Source: Elusimicrobiota bacterium (GTDB taxonomy: Bacteria; Elusimicrobiota; Elusimicrobia; UBA1565; UBA9628). From it: a stretch of 5,891 nt of DNA. Location of the stretch: the NCBI GenBank assembly GCA_016194625.1, contig JACQBB010000462.1, positions 1-5,891 of the forward strand, given 5' to 3'. Below are positions 989 to 5,891 of the stretch, in pieces. The notes beneath the pieces were generated by a model. It saw nothing but the letters and a program-made list of their open reading frames with translations. It had not been told where the DNA came from and made no database searches. How positions within the stretch are numbered: position 1 is the stretch's first letter; the number at the start of each line of letters is the position of its first letter. Made by a program: the position numbers and the translations under genes.

Positions 989-1549
989 GTGCTTTTGAGT
1001 GTCATCTTTTCGAGTGTGCTTTTCGTCATTTCGGGCTGTCAGCGCGCGCCGGCGCAGGCGCGCGCGCTGCCCGACTTCGCGCTCACCGGCGTCACCGTGG
1101 ACGGCGTCTCTCCGCTCGACCGCCGCGCGCTGCGCGGCCGCGCGTGGATCGCCGACTTCGTGTACACGCGCTGCTCGGGCCCGTGCCCGCTGCTGACCGC
1201 GCACATGGCGTCGCTGCAGAAGCGCGTGCCGAAGTCCGTCGGCCTGCTCTCGTTCACCGTGGACCCCGACCACGACTCGCCCGAGGTCCTCACGCTGTAC
1301 GCGAAGAGGTTCAAGGCCGACCCGCAGCGCTGGTTCTTCGTCACCGGCGACAAGCCCGAGCTGGTCAAGCTCTTCCGCGACGGCTTCCAGATCGCCGTCG
1401 CCGAGGATCCCGACGCGCCCGCCGGACAGACCGTCGCGCACACGACCAAGTTCGTGCTGATCGACGGCGAGGGCCTGATCCGCGGCTACTACGACGGCGA
1501 CGAGCTGGAGTCCCTCGACAAGCTCGCCAAGGACGCCGGCGGGCTCTAG
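989..1549 (+). CDS. SCO1/SenC-family lipoprotein (copper/thiol chaperone of the cell envelope)
   Basis: SCO proteins have a thioredoxin fold and deliver copper to, or reduce cysteines of, the CuA site of cytochrome c oxidase; some act in redox signalling. In this 186-residue protein the hydrophobic N-terminus ends in a lipobox ISGC, so Cys17 should be lipidated after cleavage. The hallmark copper ligands are present: CSGPC (Cys62 and Cys66) and the distal His151 in AHTTKFVLIDG. The family motif VDPDHDSP is at 91-98. Length is typical for a bacterial SCO protein. The start is GTG with a strong AGGAG. Residue +2 after the lipidated Cys is Gln rather than Asp, so by the E. coli rule it could go to the outer membrane, although SCO proteins usually work at the inner membrane. 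Its stop overlaps the stop of the convergent membrane-protein gene. No oxidase subunit gene is visible in the window. Confidence 0.92.
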   Translation: MLLSVIFSSVLFVISGCQRAPAQARALPDFALTGVTVDGVSPLDRRALRGRAWIADFVYTRCSGPCPLLTAHMASLQKRVPKSVGLLSFTVDPDHDSPEVLTLYAKRFKADPQRWFFVTGDKPELVKLFRDGFQIAVAEDPDAPAGQTVAHTTKFVLIDGEGLIRGYYDGDELESLDKLAKDAGGL

Positions 1550-1959
1550 CGCCGCGGGCGCAGGTGGAGGACGAGCGGGGCGAGGACGAGCGCGCCCAGC
1601 CAGGTGTGGATCGCGGCCGCGGCCGAGCGCGTCCCCGCGTCCGTCGCGTAGAAGAGGAACGGCACCGTCGCGATCACCGCGCCGAACGAGCCGACGAGGA
1701 CCCAGCCGCTGCGCCGCTTCTTGCGCTGCGCCAGCACCGGCTCGATGTGCGTCTTCCACAGGTAGCCGACGATCGGCAGGAAGGCCAGGCCCGCGACCGA
1801 GTGCGCGTGCAGGACCGGGACCTTCCACGGCGACGGCTCGAGGCCGTAGCCCGCGTCGGCCTGGAACCAGCGGGCCAGGACCCAGACCGCGGCGCCGCTC
1901 GCGTAGATCGCGGCGGTCAGCCCGAGCAGGACGGCCTTGAAGCGGGGGGAGAGCTTCAT
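1546..1959 (-). CDS. Small four-helix membrane protein, probable b-type cytochrome
   Basis: A 137-residue integral membrane protein with four predicted helices at about 9-31, 49-69, 85-105 and 116-133. Positive charges (N-terminal Lys/Arg, QRKKRRSG at 78-85, C-terminal RPRR) place both termini and the 2-3 loop in the cytoplasm. Histidines cluster at helix ends. His51/His53 and His118 sit at the periplasmic ends of helices 2 and 4, and His71 and His132 at the cytoplasmic ends, as expected for two stacked b haems in a four-helix bundle. I do not recognise a named family with certainty; DUF4405 or cytochrome-b561-like proteins are the closest idea. The start overlaps the stop of the FMN-binding protein gene by ATGA with no ribosome site of its own, so translation should be coupled. 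Inferred role: passing electrons across the membrane to that flavoprotein. Haem binding is inference. Confidence 0.8.
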   Translation of the reverse strand: MKLSPRFKAVLLGLTAAIYASGAAVWVLARWFQADAGYGLEPSPWKVPVLHAHSVAGLAFLPIVGYLWKTHIEPVLAQRKKRRSGWVLVGSFGAVIATVPFLFYATDAGTRSAAAAIHTWLGALVLAPLVLHLRPRR

Positions 1960-2507
1960 CGTGCCGGGTTCAGGACGCGGTGGACCGCCAGCACGCGGCG
2001 CACCGCGCGCGTCACGACGTCGGAGGTGATGCTCGCTCCGGTGACGTTGCGCAGGCCGCGGCGCAGCATCAGCTCGTCGTCGAGGCGGCGGCCGCGCAGG
2101 CGGTCGAGCCAGCCGCGCGGCGCCATGTACTCGTCGGGCTCGGCGAAGGCCAGGACCTCGACGCTCCGGATCGTCGCGTCGGGCGCGACGACGATCATCA
2201 GCGCCTCGTTCATCGTCCGCACCTTGTGCGCGTCGAAGTAGGCGGTCCCCAGCGCCCCGGACGAGGAGGCGCCGACGTAATAGGTCCAGACCTTCGACGC
2301 GACGGGCGCGCCGGCGTCGCGCGACGCGGCGTCCAGCTGGGCGTCGGTCAGGTAGGCGGTGCGGCGCTCCACCTTCGCCCCGGAGGGGAAGGCGACCGCG
2401 AGGGCCTGCTCCTGTGTGAGGAGGACCTTCGCGGCGGCGGCTCCTGGGACGGCGGCCGCCGCCGCGAAGGAGAGGATCAGAAGATGAAGCCGACGCCGAA
2501 GTTCCAT
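1956..2507 (-). CDS. Exported FMN_bind-domain flavoprotein
   Basis: A 183-residue protein with a Sec signal peptide (ELRRR n-region, hydrophobic core 9-20, cleavage near AAA at 24-26) and an FMN_bind domain like that of NqrC and RnfG. The C-terminal part carries FAEPDEYM (121-128) and LDDELMLRRG (142-151), leading to TGASITS (156-162), which aligns with the family's S/T-G-A-T attachment motif where ApbE links FMN covalently. The expected acceptor is Ser159 rather than Thr, and the usual Asp three residues before the motif is Arg153. It lies in the same operon as apbE, its likely modifying enzyme, and overlaps the four-helix membrane protein gene by ATGA. The ATG at 2507 lies 31 bases inside the porin gene and gives a clean signal peptide. 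A GTG at 2654 would add an Arg/Pro-rich stretch that is only the porin gene read in another frame. No Shine-Dalgarno is seen, so coupling to porin translation is likely. Confidence 0.85.
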   Translation of the reverse strand: MELRRRLHLLILSFAAAAAVPGAAAAKVLLTQEQALAVAFPSGAKVERRTAYLTDAQLDAASRDAGAPVASKVWTYYVGASSSGALGTAYFDAHKVRTMNEALMIVVAPDATIRSVEVLAFAEPDEYMAPRGWLDRLRGRRLDDELMLRRGLRNVTGASITSDVVTRAVRRVLAVHRVLNPAR

Positions 2508-3793
2508 TGGTTGACGCCCGTGCGGGCCTGGTTGCGCTTCCACTGCTGGTCGAGCTTCAGCGCGACCCGCGAGACGGGCTTGTAGGTCAGGCCGAGGGTG
2601 TACTCGACGCGGCTGTTGGCGGGGTCCTTCGCGTAGCCGTCCGGCACCCGCCACTGCGTATCATAGCGTTCGTAGCGGACGAAAGGCGAGAGGGCCTGGC
2701 CGCCCGCCTTCGGGAACAGCGAGAGCACGTCGAACGCCGCCTCGGCGTAGCCGCCGAACAGGCGCCGGCCGACCGACTGGTTCCCGGTGAAGCCCTGGGC
2801 GACGTTCAGGTCGCCGGCGTTGCCGACCGTGCCCTCGGCGTACAGCGCGCGCACGGAGGCGCCGCGCCAGGCCGCCTCGCCGTGCGCCTCCCACAGCGTC
2901 ACCGGGACGGTCGCGCCGGAGTTCACGCGCGCGGCGCGGCCCAGGTACAGGCCCGCTCCGGCCTTCACGCCCTCGACGACGGTCAAGTCCGCGCGCGACG
3001 CCCAGGCGAGGTCGTCGGCGGGGCTGTTCGTGCCCTCGGTCCGGCCGCCGCGCAGGCCGTTGGCGGCGGTGAAGCCGTCGGCGTCCGGGTCGGTGGACTT
3101 GGCGCCGGTCAGCGACGCCAGCGCGTAGGTCCGGTAGGCGAGCGGGCCGGCCTCGCCGAACACGCCGACGCCGTTCTCGTGCCAGGTCGAGGGGATGATC
3201 GTCTGCTCGACGCTGGGCCGGTTCACGCCGTGGAACGCGGTCGGCTCGTGCAGCTCGTTGACGAGCCCGAGCGGGACGATCACGTGGCCGACGCGCGCGC
3301 CGAGCGCCTTGAACGGCCGGTACTCGAGGTAGGCCTGCTCGACGGCCGCCTCGCCGCGGGCCTCGGAGCCCTCGCCGGTGCCGCCGTGCTCGAACTCGAA
3401 CTCCGAGTTCAGCAGGAGCGTGTCGGTGAACTTGTAGCCGGCGTACAGCACCATGCGCTGGAGGTCGGACTGCTTCTTGAGGCCGGAGGCGTCCCCGTTC
3501 TGCTTCGCGCGCGACGGGGCCTTGAACACGAACTCGCCGTAGCCGCCGAGCGAGACCTTGTCGAGGGCGGAGCCGTACACCTTCGACGCCGACGGGCTGA
3601 GGCCGGGCTGGGCGGGGACGGCGGACGGAGCCTCGGCGGCGGCGCCGAGACGCAGCTTCTCGAGCTCCGAGGTCAGCGCGTCGACCTTCCTCTCCAGCTC
3701 GCCCAGGCGGGCGGCGGGTGCGTCCTGAGCGCGGACGGGCGCCGCGGCGAACAGCGCGGCGGCGGACAGCAGTGCGGCGAGGGGACGGTTCAT
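2477..3793 (-). CDS. Outer-membrane porin with N-terminal coiled coil (OprP/OprO-like)
   Basis: A 438-residue outer-membrane beta-barrel protein. The signal peptide is at 1-22 (cleaved after VRA). A short coiled coil follows, with L30, L33, V37, L40, L44 and L47 in 3-4-3-4-3 spacing. A Pro/Ala/Ser linker (50-70) leads into a barrel of alternating aromatic and polar strands beginning SLGGYGEFVF (81-90). The barrel ends NFGVGFIF with a terminal Phe, the usual recognition signal for barrel assembly. The segment TIIPSTWHENGVGVFGE (about 198-214) and the EFEFEHGG/EQAYLEYRP region resemble proteins annotated as phosphate-selective porins, but substrate cannot be read from this. The start overlaps the apbE stop by ATGA and has its own AAAGGAG. 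In context it should supply the substrate or acceptor of the flavoprotein system encoded around it. Porin identity is firm and selectivity unknown. Confidence 0.88.
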   Translation of the reverse strand: MNRPLAALLSAAALFAAAPVRAQDAPAARLGELERKVDALTSELEKLRLGAAAEAPSAVPAQPGLSPSASKVYGSALDKVSLGGYGEFVFKAPSRAKQNGDASGLKKQSDLQRMVLYAGYKFTDTLLLNSEFEFEHGGTGEGSEARGEAAVEQAYLEYRPFKALGARVGHVIVPLGLVNELHEPTAFHGVNRPSVEQTIIPSTWHENGVGVFGEAGPLAYRTYALASLTGAKSTDPDADGFTAANGLRGGRTEGTNSPADDLAWASRADLTVVEGVKAGAGLYLGRAARVNSGATVPVTLWEAHGEAAWRGASVRALYAEGTVGNAGDLNVAQGFTGNQSVGRRLFGGYAEAAFDVLSLFPKAGGQALSPFVRYERYDTQWRVPDGYAKDPANSRVEYTLGLTYKPVSRVALKLDQQWKRNQARTGVNQWNFGVGFIF

Positions 3794-4638
3794 CGGGATT
3801 CTCCTTTATAAGACGGGTTTTCGGTGAAGAACGATCGTCCCGGGAAAGAAGGGGGAGTCTTTCCCAGGACGAAAAGGGCGGTGGACCAGGCGTCGGCCTC
3901 GGTCGCGGTGGGCAGGACGGCGGTCGCTTGGAGCGTGCGCCGGACGGGCCGGCCGTCGAACGGCGAGACGATGTGGCCGGGCCGCTCGGAGTCGCCGGAG
4001 GTCGACACGGACCCGGCCGTCAGGGCGATCGGGCCGCTCCGTCCCGGGACCGCGACGCTCCACTCGCCGCCGCCGGCGGGGGCGCCGAGCACGAGGATCT
4101 GTCCGCCGAAGTTCATCCGGGCGCGCACGACGCCGCGCGCGCGCAGGACCGCGGCCGCGCGGTCGAGGGCCCAGCCCTTGCCGATGCCGCCGAAGTCCAG
4201 CCCCATCCCGGCCTTCGGCAGCTCGATCGCGCGGGCCGCGGGGTCGAGGCGGACCCGGGCCCAGCCGACGAGCGGCAGCGCCGCCGGCCCGCGCTTCTCC
4301 AGCGGGAGCACGGTCGGGTCGAACGCCCCGCCGGTCGCGCGGGCCAGGCGCAGCGCCGCCTCGGTCTGCGCGTACAGCTCGGGCGAGGCGCGGAACGGCC
4401 CCTTGCCGGCGGCGGCGTTGAGGCGGTTCAGCTCGCTGTCCGGCTTGTACAGGCTGAGCACGCGGTCCCAGCGGTCGATCTCGTCGAACGCGGCGGCGGC
4501 GGCGGCGTCCGCGTCCGGTCCGCCCGAGGCTTCGATCGAGCACATCGTGCCCATCAGCCAGCGCATGCGCGCGGTCTCCGCGGCGGCGGGCGCGGCGGCG
4601 AGGAGCGCGGCGGCGACGAGCGTCTTATTGAGATTCAT
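3790..4638 (-). CDS. apbE: FAD:protein FMN transferase (ApbE), exported
   Basis: ApbE uses FAD and Mg2+ to transfer FMN onto a Thr or Ser of exported flavoproteins, releasing AMP. The 282-residue product shows a signal peptide (about 1-20, no lipobox, so soluble in the periplasm unlike lipidated E. coli ApbE). It carries the family motifs in order: LMGTMCSIEA (28-37), AFDPTVLPL (105-113), LDFGGIGKGWALD (147-159), NFGGQILVLG (176-185), STSGDSER (212-219), HIVSPFDGRP (222-231) and TEADAWSTALFVLG (246-259). The last contains the Mg-binding Asp249. Length is slightly short for the family (about 300-350). It heads the operon with an FMN_bind protein that is its probable substrate. The ATG at 4638 is preferred; a TTG at 4647 would add MLK, and neither has a Shine-Dalgarno. 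Its stop overlaps the porin start. Confidence 0.93.
   Translation of the reverse strand: MNLNKTLVAAALLAAAPAAAETARMRWLMGTMCSIEASGGPDADAAAAAAFDEIDRWDRVLSLYKPDSELNRLNAAAGKGPFRASPELYAQTEAALRLARATGGAFDPTVLPLEKRGPAALPLVGWARVRLDPAARAIELPKAGMGLDFGGIGKGWALDRAAAVLRARGVVRARMNFGGQILVLGAPAGGGEWSVAVPGRSGPIALTAGSVSTSGDSERPGHIVSPFDGRPVRRTLQATAVLPTATEADAWSTALFVLGKTPPSFPGRSFFTENPSYKGESR
3801..3807 (-). promoter_or_regulatory. Ribosome binding site of the porin gene
   Basis: AAAGGAG on the minus strand, 7 bases before the ATG at 3793 and lying inside the last codons of apbE. It is the only strong ribosome site inside this four-gene operon, which suggests the porin is made in larger amounts than its neighbours. 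Confidence 0.65.
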
Positions 4639-4651
4639 TTTCAACAAGGAC

Positions 4652-4681
4652 AGGATAGCACGGGTCCTTATTGAAATGCAA
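4652..4681 (-). promoter_or_regulatory. Candidate promoter of the apbE operon
   Basis: On the minus strand, TTGCAT (4681-4676) and TATCCT (4657-4652) each match 4 of 6 bases of the sigma-70 boxes, with an 18-base spacer. They lie in the AT-rich patch directly upstream of apbE. Transcription would begin around 4645, only about 7 bases before the ATG, which would make the apbE mRNA nearly leaderless and fits the missing Shine-Dalgarno. The -35 box falls inside the palindrome at 4669-4689. Confidence 0.35.
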
Positions 4682-4689
4682 TATCAATA
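4669..4689. promoter_or_regulatory. Fur-box-like palindromic operator upstream of apbE
   Basis: A 21-base imperfect palindrome, TATTGA...TCAATA on the minus strand, has 8 of 10 arm positions paired around a single centre base at 4679. Its 15-base core (4672-4686, minus strand TGATATTGCATTTCA) matches the 7-1-7 Fur consensus TGATAATNATTATCA at 10 of 14 defined positions. It sits in a GC-rich genome where such AT-rich symmetry is unlikely to persist by chance, 31 bases from the apbE start and over the candidate -35 box, the right place for a repressor. Other Fur-family regulators (Zur, PerR) could fit. Confidence 0.45.
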
Positions 4690-4701
4690 AGCGTCCGGGC
4701 G

Positions 4702-4734
4702 AAAAAAAGAGGGCCCGCCTCGCGGCGGGCCCTC
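4702..4734 (-). terminator. Intrinsic terminator of the tlpA-dsbA operon
   Basis: On the minus strand, a perfect 11-bp GC-rich stem (GAGGGCCCGCC pairing with GGCGGGCCCTC, arms 4724-4734 and 4709-4719) is closed by a GCGA tetraloop of the GNRA type. Seven T (4708-4702) follow immediately. It begins 15 bases after the DsbA stop codon. It separates that operon from the apbE promoter just downstream. Confidence 0.93.
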
Positions 4735-4749
4735 GTCCTCCGTCGGCGG

Positions 4750-5520
4750 TCAGACGCCGAGGCGGTTGATGATCTTGTCGAAGTCCTCGGGCGGGTACGC
4801 GCCGCGCAGGGGGACGCCGTTGATCAGGAAGCCGGGCGTGCCGGTGAAGCCGAACGACTTGGCCTCCTTCACGTCGGCCTCGATCTTGTCGGCGACGACC
4901 TTGCTCTCCGCGTCCTTGGCGGCCTTCGCGACGTCCAGGCCCAGCTCCTTGACGGTCTTCTTGAAGAAGTCCTCGCCGAGCTGCCCCTGGTTCTCGAACA
5001 TCTTGTCGTGGAAGACCCACGCCTTGTCGGGGGACTGCAGCGCGACCGCCTCCTGCCACTTCGCGGCCGGCAGGGCGAACGGGTGGATCGCGACGAGCGG
5101 CAGGTGCTTGTAGACGAAGCGGACCTTGGCGCCGTACTTCTGCCGGACGGCCTCGACGACCTGGAAGCCGCGGCCGCAGTAGGGGCACTGGAAGTCGGAG
5201 TACTCGACGAGCGTGATCGGGGCGTTCTTGTCGCCGCGGACGCGCGTCTTCTCGTCGATGACGGGCTTGAAGGGGTTCTTGTAGGCCGCCTCCAGCTCGG
5301 CCTTCTCCTTCTCCTCCTCCTCCTTCTGCTTCTTCGCCTGATAGTCGCGCTGGGCTTCCATCATCAGCTCGAAGAGGGCGCCCTTGTCGGCCTTCTTCAG
5401 GGCGCCGATGACCAGGTCGGGGTTCGCGTCGAGGGCCTTCTTGAGCTCGTCCCGGCTCACGGCGGCGGCGGCCGGCGCGGCGACGAGGACGCTGAGGACG
5501 GCGGCGAGGGCTCGGTTCAT
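4750..5520 (-). CDS. DsbA/ScsC-like periplasmic thiol-disulfide oxidoreductase
   Basis: A 256-residue exported thioredoxin-fold protein that should oxidise or isomerise disulfides in the periplasm. Features in order: signal peptide (1-20, AAAA cleavage region); a helical stretch 22-60 with a DANPDLVIGAL element like the N-terminal oligomerisation segment of ScsC/Com1-type proteins; a highly charged Lys/Glu helix (62-81); then the catalytic domain beginning GDKNAPITLVEYSDF. The active site is CPYC (Cys112, Cys115), and the partner cis-proline is Pro229 in TGTPGFLI. The helical insertion typical of DsbA lies between. The ATG at 5520 has AGGAG 6 bases upstream and overlaps the stop of the TlpA-type gene by ATGA. 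The pairing of a TlpA-type with a ScsC-type protein recalls ScsD-ScsC of copper-tolerance operons; that parallel is inference. A strong terminator follows. Confidence 0.9.
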   Translation of the reverse strand: MNRALAAVLSVLVAAPAAAAVSRDELKKALDANPDLVIGALKKADKGALFELMMEAQRDYQAKKQKEEEEKEKAELEAAYKNPFKPVIDEKTRVRGDKNAPITLVEYSDFQCPYCGRGFQVVEAVRQKYGAKVRFVYKHLPLVAIHPFALPAAKWQEAVALQSPDKAWVFHDKMFENQGQLGEDFFKKTVKELGLDVAKAAKDAESKVVADKIEADVKEAKSFGFTGTPGFLINGVPLRGAYPPEDFDKIINRLGV

Positions 5521-5891
5521 GAGGGTCTCCTGTTCAGAAGGCTGAGGATATCATTTTCGACCGCGCGGGCGTCCAGGGGGCCGACGTAGCGGCGGGCGAT
5601 GGTCCCGTCGGGAGCGATCAGGAAGGTCGTCGGGAGCATCCGGACGGCGTAGGCGTCCATCGTCCGGCGGTCGGCGTAGAGCAGCGGGTAGTTCAGGCCG
5701 TGGGCGGCGGCGAAGGGGGGGACGACCTTCGCCGCGTCGTCGTCCACGCTGACCGAGAGGAGCTCGAAGCCGTCCGTCGCGGAGCGCTCCTGGAGGGCCC
5801 GCAGCGCGGGCAGCTCCTCCTTGCAGGAGTCGCACCAGGTCGCCCAGAAGTTCAGGACGACGACGCGGCCCTTCTTCGACGAGAGCGAGAC
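5517..5891 (-). CDS. TlpA/ResA-family thioredoxin-like protein, C-terminal part, cut by right edge
   Basis: The last 124 residues of an extracytoplasmic thiol-disulfide reductase of the TlpA/ResA/DsbE group, which reduces cysteines of apocytochromes or of copper-site proteins. The visible part opens with the central strand VVVLNFWATWCDSCKEELP (10-28 of the fragment). Its redox pair is Cys20 and Cys23, with the family Glu just after; DS replaces the usual xP between the cysteines. The cis-proline lies in MLPTTFLI, and DGTIARRYVGPLD is the typical C-terminal strand region. The fragment starts just before the active site, so the signal peptide or membrane anchor and the true start are outside the window. 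The stop overlaps the start of the DsbA-like gene by ATGA, so both are one operon. The family call is firm; the specific partner is unknown. Confidence 0.88.
   Translation of the reverse strand, partial: VSLSSKKGRVVVLNFWATWCDSCKEELPALRALQERSATDGFELLSVSVDDDAAKVVPPFAAAHGLNYPLLYADRRTMDAYAVRMLPTTFLIAPDGTIARRYVGPLDARAVENDILSLLNRRPS
5527..5531 (-). promoter_or_regulatory. Ribosome binding site of the DsbA-like gene
   Basis: AGGAG on the minus strand, 6 bases before the ATG at 5520 and inside the 3' end of the upstream TlpA-type gene. It allows independent initiation in addition to coupling through the ATGA overlap. Confidence 0.65.

Follow-up and report, generated by a model that had tools for sequence, protein, structure and literature searches.

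The window analysed here, the whole stretch of 5,891 nucleotides of the Elusimicrobiota bacterium contig JACQBB010000462.1, carries a compact unit of four genes on the minus strand, transcribed in the order apbE (coding for an exported flavin adenine dinucleotide (FAD):protein flavin mononucleotide (FMN) transferase), a porin-like outer-membrane beta-barrel, an exported FMN_bind protein and a four-helix inner-membrane protein. With a probability that we put at roughly three in four, the unit is a ferric reductase module which would be controlled by Fur, induced upon iron limitation and feed FeoB. The regulatory part of this reading comes from tool results, while the redox and transport part is drawn from knowledge of the protein families. 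As the operator is common to the unit and to known iron-uptake genes, an iron role is likely; the ferric reductase proposed in the original prediction thus finds support in the sequence, to which the shared operator adds evidence on the level of the regulon.

Two palindromes of the pattern TTGA-N9-TCAA, the only two copies in the window, are located before apbE. The Fur-type operator TTGAAAATGAATCTCAA at 4628..4644 overlaps the apbE start codon, and TTGATATTGCATTTCAA at 4671..4687 lies 43 bases upstream of the first operator (both given as on the minus strand); none of 200 shuffles had two copies and at most one occurred. The Fur-like operator that had been predicted upstream of the unit is consequently present, and in duplicate. 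The profile of the FMN_bind protein matches in 47 of 340 Elusimicrobiota genomes, 40 of which had their neighbourhoods read (G008, G013, G120, G132, G188, G242 and G246 were left out). After removal of L050 and L052, where contig ends take away apbE and barrel, and of L061, L064 and L074, which lack an apbE or barrel match, 38 loci were tallied, that is, 37 relatives and the window. The operator stands before fur, apbE or the barrel gene and is found near the start of one of these in 23/38 loci, a tally that omits the site of G002:C29 just inside the assigned apbE start; paired operators 42-43 bases apart occur in ten loci, window included. Altogether, 80 upstream stretches hold 38 operator sites, compared with a mean of 0.3 and a maximum of 2 in 200 shuffles.

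On the genome level, the longer form ATTGA-N9-TCAAT was scanned for in 21 of the 47 matching genomes, which were chosen by hand mainly among the strongest matches and are therefore not a random sample. The scan recovered 47 sites in 18 of these related genomes, while the reversed control pattern gave no site in the same 21. Assigned to genes by hand, 19 sites lie at the four-gene cluster (including that of G197:C98, which follows dsbA at a contig end, with apbE on another contig) and nine before feoB or feoAB, six of them with neighbourhoods read (L087-L092) and three (G196:C8, G207:C425 and G210:C36) placed by distance alone, the FeoB_C match lying roughly 1.45 kb away. Two further sites are found in front of an FTR1 permease and one in front of a TonB gene, behind which a receptor plug domain is encoded; ferritin genes and/or genes resembling IucA/IucC siderophore synthetases adjoin another five, and the remainder comprises four sites before a Phenol_MetA_deg outer-membrane protein and seven unlinked ones, four of which are within reading frames. 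Cumulatively, 36/47 sites are located either at the four-gene cluster or at genes for FeoB, FTR1, TonB/receptor, IucA/IucC or ferritin, a make-up that, judged from the related genomes, corresponds to what a Fur regulon should look like. In about half of the scanned genomes feoB carries the operator, FeoB_C is present in all 21, one below the family cut-off, and G182 and G183 encode feoAB in the same locus as fur, apbE and barrel. Since TonB-type and siderophore genes are under the same operator in some genomes with the cluster, the four-gene module is not the sole iron route. Among the proteins behind the operator are outer-membrane proteins of the Phenol_MetA_deg type, which follow it directly (L086 2065-2853, L080 2033-2779, L050 4370-5224), and proteins that combine an FTR1 permease with a cytochrome c domain (L075 1-1960, L077 918-2912).

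The four genes were predicted to overlap, and all of them were indeed found in their places on the minus strand as one unit with its own control region, the overlaps amounting to 4 bases between apbE and barrel, 31 between barrel and FMN_bind and 4 between FMN_bind and the four-helix gene. A search for co-occurrence across genomes, as suggested along with the original prediction, finds the set conserved, with apbE in 34/38 loci, the barrel in 33/38 and one of two four-helix proteins in 29/38, and with a further set borne by a plasmid in Ideonella dechloratans, a betaproteobacterium; in locus L063 a DUF6662 protein occupies the barrel slot. The relatives L001 and L002 come from Elusimicrobia metagenome genomes, and wherever an organism is named for the 120 relatives listed out of 1021, it is Elusimicrobia/Elusimicrobiota. 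The suggested link to iron genes is borne out by adjacency as well as by the shared operator: fur adjoins 17/38 loci, feo, ferritin, TonB or IucA-like genes recognized by protein similarity are present in 11/38, and fur or another iron gene in 22/38.

The first gene of the unit, apbE (3790..4638, minus strand), encodes a protein with a signal-peptide-like N-terminus that matches PF02424 far over the Pfam cut-off (expectation value, E, of 6.5e-53) and whose profile retrieves FMN transferases among solved structures (best 5.1e-33). Its putative substrate, the exported FMN_bind protein (1956..2507, minus strand), is borderline for PF04205 in the window (21.8 bits, cut-off 22.0) and above the cut-off in relatives (23.4 bits in L001), and its profile matches RnfG of the structure 9eri (E 0.0016). 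Alignment and a tally of motifs place the putative flavinylation site at RNVTGAS, residues 153-159 (2031..2051, minus strand), of which Ser159 is the expected FMN acceptor. According to passages of PMC12052999, the flavinylation consensus is D-x-x-[S/T]-G-A-[S/T], the acceptor may be Ser, and exchange of the Asp to Ala in one model protein had a minor effect only. In the alignment, RNVTGAS keeps TGAS and has Arg at the Asp position. Genome G204 encodes two additional FMN_bind-like paralogues with no apbE or barrel match nearby, one of which (L064 6902-7441) is without the GA[ST] motif, while the other (L061 6962-7492) keeps AGAS and has no Pfam FMN_bind score.

The four-helix protein (1546..1959, minus strand; 137 residues) has four hydrophobic segments and His at positions 51, 53, 71, 118 and 132. 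His53, His71, His118 and His132 are invariant in alignments of 11 and 6 sequences down to 28-29% identity (the L063 copy, the second half of which is out of frame, was omitted), in line with a two-haem cytochrome of the DUF4405/b561-like kind. By positive-inside reasoning, His53 and His118 would lie towards the periplasmic side of the membrane and His71 and His132 towards the cytoplasmic side, an arrangement that fits two haems. Eight of the 11 members give DUF4405 matches at E<=0.1, the best being 4.1e-4 and all of them below the cut-off, and the protein is classed from its sequence as DUF4405/b561-like and not as a DUF4405 member. With PF01292, the cytochrome b561 family, relative L060 scores 32.9 against a cut-off of 30.1, and the window protein has no match at E<=0.1. 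The cytochrome predicted originally is strengthened by the four invariant His, by L060 exceeding the PF01292 cut-off and by haem b binding, which passages of PMC11334425 report as shown for a DUF4405 protein and for FezC. A PDB sequence search with the window four-helix alignment gave chance matches only, and a Foldseek search with the structural model gave no match at E<=0.001; with VIA-align it retrieved mixed helix bundles, which were not used as evidence.

The window type fills the inner-membrane slot in 4/38 loci and a different four-helix family in 25/38. This second family is PF27139 by database label in all 120 relatives listed. When the profiles of the two families were compared, no significant similarity emerged (probability 0.5%), and we therefore regard them as distinct occupants of the same slot. 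In PF27139, an example of which is located at L001 8500-8991, a single helix carries three invariant His (an HxH and another His 13 residues on), and Trp/Arg are invariant as well; the family is a candidate for haem binding, perhaps with haems paired across a dimer in the way suggested for FezC. For its structural model (predicted local distance difference test score, pLDDT, of 79), Foldseek gave no match at E<=0.001, the top row being haem A synthase at E 0.97, and VIA-align returned unrelated helical proteins; neither result was used as evidence.

The second gene product (2477..3793, minus strand) is recognized as an outer-membrane beta-barrel by family matches, a signal-peptide-like N-terminus and a C-terminal Phe invariant in 23/23 members. 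At E<=0.01, 6/23 members match Porin_O_P (best 5.2e-6), and other barrel families among the 23 members are BBP2 with two matches and OMP_b-brl and Porin_4 with one each; the protein is accordingly called porin-like only, a weak Porin_O_P relative by sequence. Searched against PDB sequences, the barrel alignment retrieved OmpX alone (E 0.05-0.09). In the alignment of the 23 sequences, residues 131, 133 and 135 are three invariant Glu at alternating positions, which could line the barrel pore and favour cations.

Assembled into a mechanism, scarcity of iron would make Fur leave the two operators, upon which the unit would be transcribed, as the operator and the regulon suggest. The barrel may then admit small iron complexes or iron ions to the periplasm, and ApbE, going by family and motif, is predicted to link FMN to the exported FMN_bind protein at the Ser of RNVTGAS. 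The four-helix protein would hold two b haems, judged from the invariant His and the topology, with His53-His118 on the periplasmic and His71-His132 on the cytoplasmic side, and would relay electrons to the FMN, with the quinol pool as their probable source. Once reduced, the flavin would in turn convert Fe(III) to Fe(II), which FeoB would take up.

Beyond Elusimicrobiota, the plasmid of Ideonella dechloratans carries consecutive genes for a barrel, an FMN_bind protein, ApbE and a hypothetical protein of 155 residues. The barrel aligns to 82% of the query with 30% identity, and the 155-residue protein keeps all four His. As the FMN_bind protein has no match on plasmids at E<=1e-5, this set was found via the barrel, relatives of which are on 17 plasmid records; of the five neighbourhoods read, one (Ideonella) has the four-gene set and the other four do not, two of these having imelysin genes beside the barrel and two, from Candidatus Manganitrophus plasmids, being without apbE or FMN-binding annotation. 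On plasmids of Parabacteroides distasonis (L102) and Pseudoalteromonas donghaensis (L103), barrel relatives stand beside imelysin and di-haem oxidoreductase genes, possibly another iron-uptake setting. Upstream of the Ideonella set (L101 1-4665) are genes for a two-component system, for a di-haem cytochrome c peroxidase and, on the opposite strand, for a TonB-dependent receptor.

A wider proposal, to which we give slightly less than even odds, is that of a TonB-independent modular iron acquisition system in at least two phyla with a core of FMN_bind protein and ApbE, where the barrel would feed the flavoprotein directly, such that entry and reduction of iron would be joined in one machine. The outer and the inner slot would be exchangeable, with a porin-like barrel or DUF6662 (L063) in the outer and a DUF4405/b561-like protein or PF27139 in the inner position.

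Several observations weigh against a Fur-controlled ferric reductase. On the regulatory side, 15/38 loci have no operator in the searched stretch, some through contig ends, 3/21 scanned genomes have no site of the longer form, and Ideonella has one match to a relaxed Fur-type pattern, which is no better than chance (20/200 shuffles with one); as the Ideonella set follows a cytochrome c peroxidase and a two-component system, its control may differ. On the protein side, the Asp of the flavinylation motif is replaced by Arg in 26/38 loci, window included, and present in 1/38, the window barrel is under the Pfam cut-offs (Porin_O_P 13.9 bits vs 20.9), and the window four-helix protein is under the PF14358 gathering cut-off (16.3 vs 26.7 bits) with a poor AlphaFold model (pLDDT 67).

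The same genes could alternatively serve respiratory or extracellular electron export to a terminal acceptor, in which case Fur control would reflect flavin replacing iron proteins under scarcity. Flavinylated proteins do serve respiration elsewhere and a replacement of iron by flavin is discussed in passages of PMC8238504, and the gene preceding the Ideonella set, coding for a di-haem cytochrome c peroxidase, also speaks for it. No frame with at least four CxxCH motifs is, however, present in the 38 loci, and one short frame has two, such that no multihaem cytochrome is encoded nearby (other terminal oxidoreductases were not searched for). As the operator is moreover common to iron-uptake genes and ferritin or feoB adjoin several loci, we consider electron export unlikely and retain the ferric reductase.

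The flanks of the unit invite two further explanations. Directly upstream in the window is dsbA (4750-5520, minus strand), preceded by a TlpA-like fragment (5517-5891, minus strand), and both kinds of genes recur near the cluster in several relatives, together with fur in L036, L037 and L055, which would suit an oxidative-stress or thiol-redox system. The window has, however, a terminator-like hairpin with a T run after dsbA (4709..4734, minus strand; 11 pairs, 10 of them G-C; shuffles mean 0.1) and the operator region between dsbA and apbE, and the hairpin implies that apbE probably opens its own transcription unit. A scan of 4550-4800 for a consensus promoter found none, and the window has no Rfam match at gathering cut-offs. 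Other relatives have fur in place of dsbA. The Fur protein adjoining the L002 cluster aligns to both PerR (2fe3) and Fur (6d57), with Glu like 6d57 where 2fe3 has Asp, and 17/17 adjacent Fur proteins have Glu at this position, which we take to separate Fur from PerR, with Asp in PerR. A thiol-redox role is, with this, quite improbable. On the other side of the unit, a SCO1-like gene (989-1549) is found, with a ribonucleotide reductase gene (3-842) beyond it. SCO1-like genes are present in eight other loci as well and might tie the unit to copper handling, but the gene of the window is on the opposite strand and convergent to the unit, and no locus with an adjacent fur has a SCO1-like gene in the stretch read, which makes participation in copper handling the most improbable of explanations.

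As a ferric reductase, the unit would represent a concrete iron-acquisition module for a largely uncultured phylum and would suggest a function for two families of small membrane proteins, the DUF4405/b561-like protein and PF27139. The operator provides a Fur pattern for Elusimicrobiota that can be used to predict the iron regulon there. The module may also provide partners for porins described earlier as preceded by Fur boxes and of unexplained role. Within the open-licence library searched, no listed paper describes the combination of a barrel with a flavinylation gene in its title or abstract. Flavinylation-based iron reductases are already known, and the unit would be one with a porin and exchangeable membrane parts.

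The published systems are compared on the basis of passages or the abstract of the respective papers. DUF4405 proteins have already been linked with haem and apbE, and the four-helix protein resembles the flavinylation-associated DUF4405 cytochromes in its small size, its membrane location, its four central His and its being encoded together with apbE (PMC11334425). Unlike those systems, the partner here is FMN_bind, there often Flavodoxin_4, and a barrel is in the operon here, whereas the word 'porin' occurs 0 times in the text of that source. The FMN_bind protein belongs by profile to the same family as RnfG; no Rnf/Nqr membrane subunit is among the window genes. In Caulobacter crescentus, CC_3060-3063 is an iron-responsive apbE/DUF2271 gene group, with DUF2271 in place of FMN_bind and no porin in the part of the gene run covered (PMC3751524). 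The psp porin of Geobacter metallireducens and Desulfuromonas, weakly similar to PF07396, is, by description, like the barrel in having two tandem Fur boxes and a proposed iron role, and the window palindrome resembles the delta-proteobacterial Fur box WTGAAAATNATTTTCAW; psp differs in being listed alone, the passages naming neither FMN_bind nor apbE nor a cytochrome as its partner (PMC545781).

Flavinylation has already been connected with iron assimilation, with 0 occurrences of 'porin' in the text of that source (PMC8238504). The PepSY-type iron reductases and HiuABC share with the proposed module outer-membrane entry coupled with an inner-membrane reductase, Fur regulation and iron assimilation (PMC8238504, PMC13001220), while the unit differs from them in that a porin-like barrel replaces the TonB-dependent receptor, the FMN_bind protein is separate and exported, and the cytochrome is smaller. 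The Fur-regulated HiuABC operon is the nearest functional parallel (PMC13001220).

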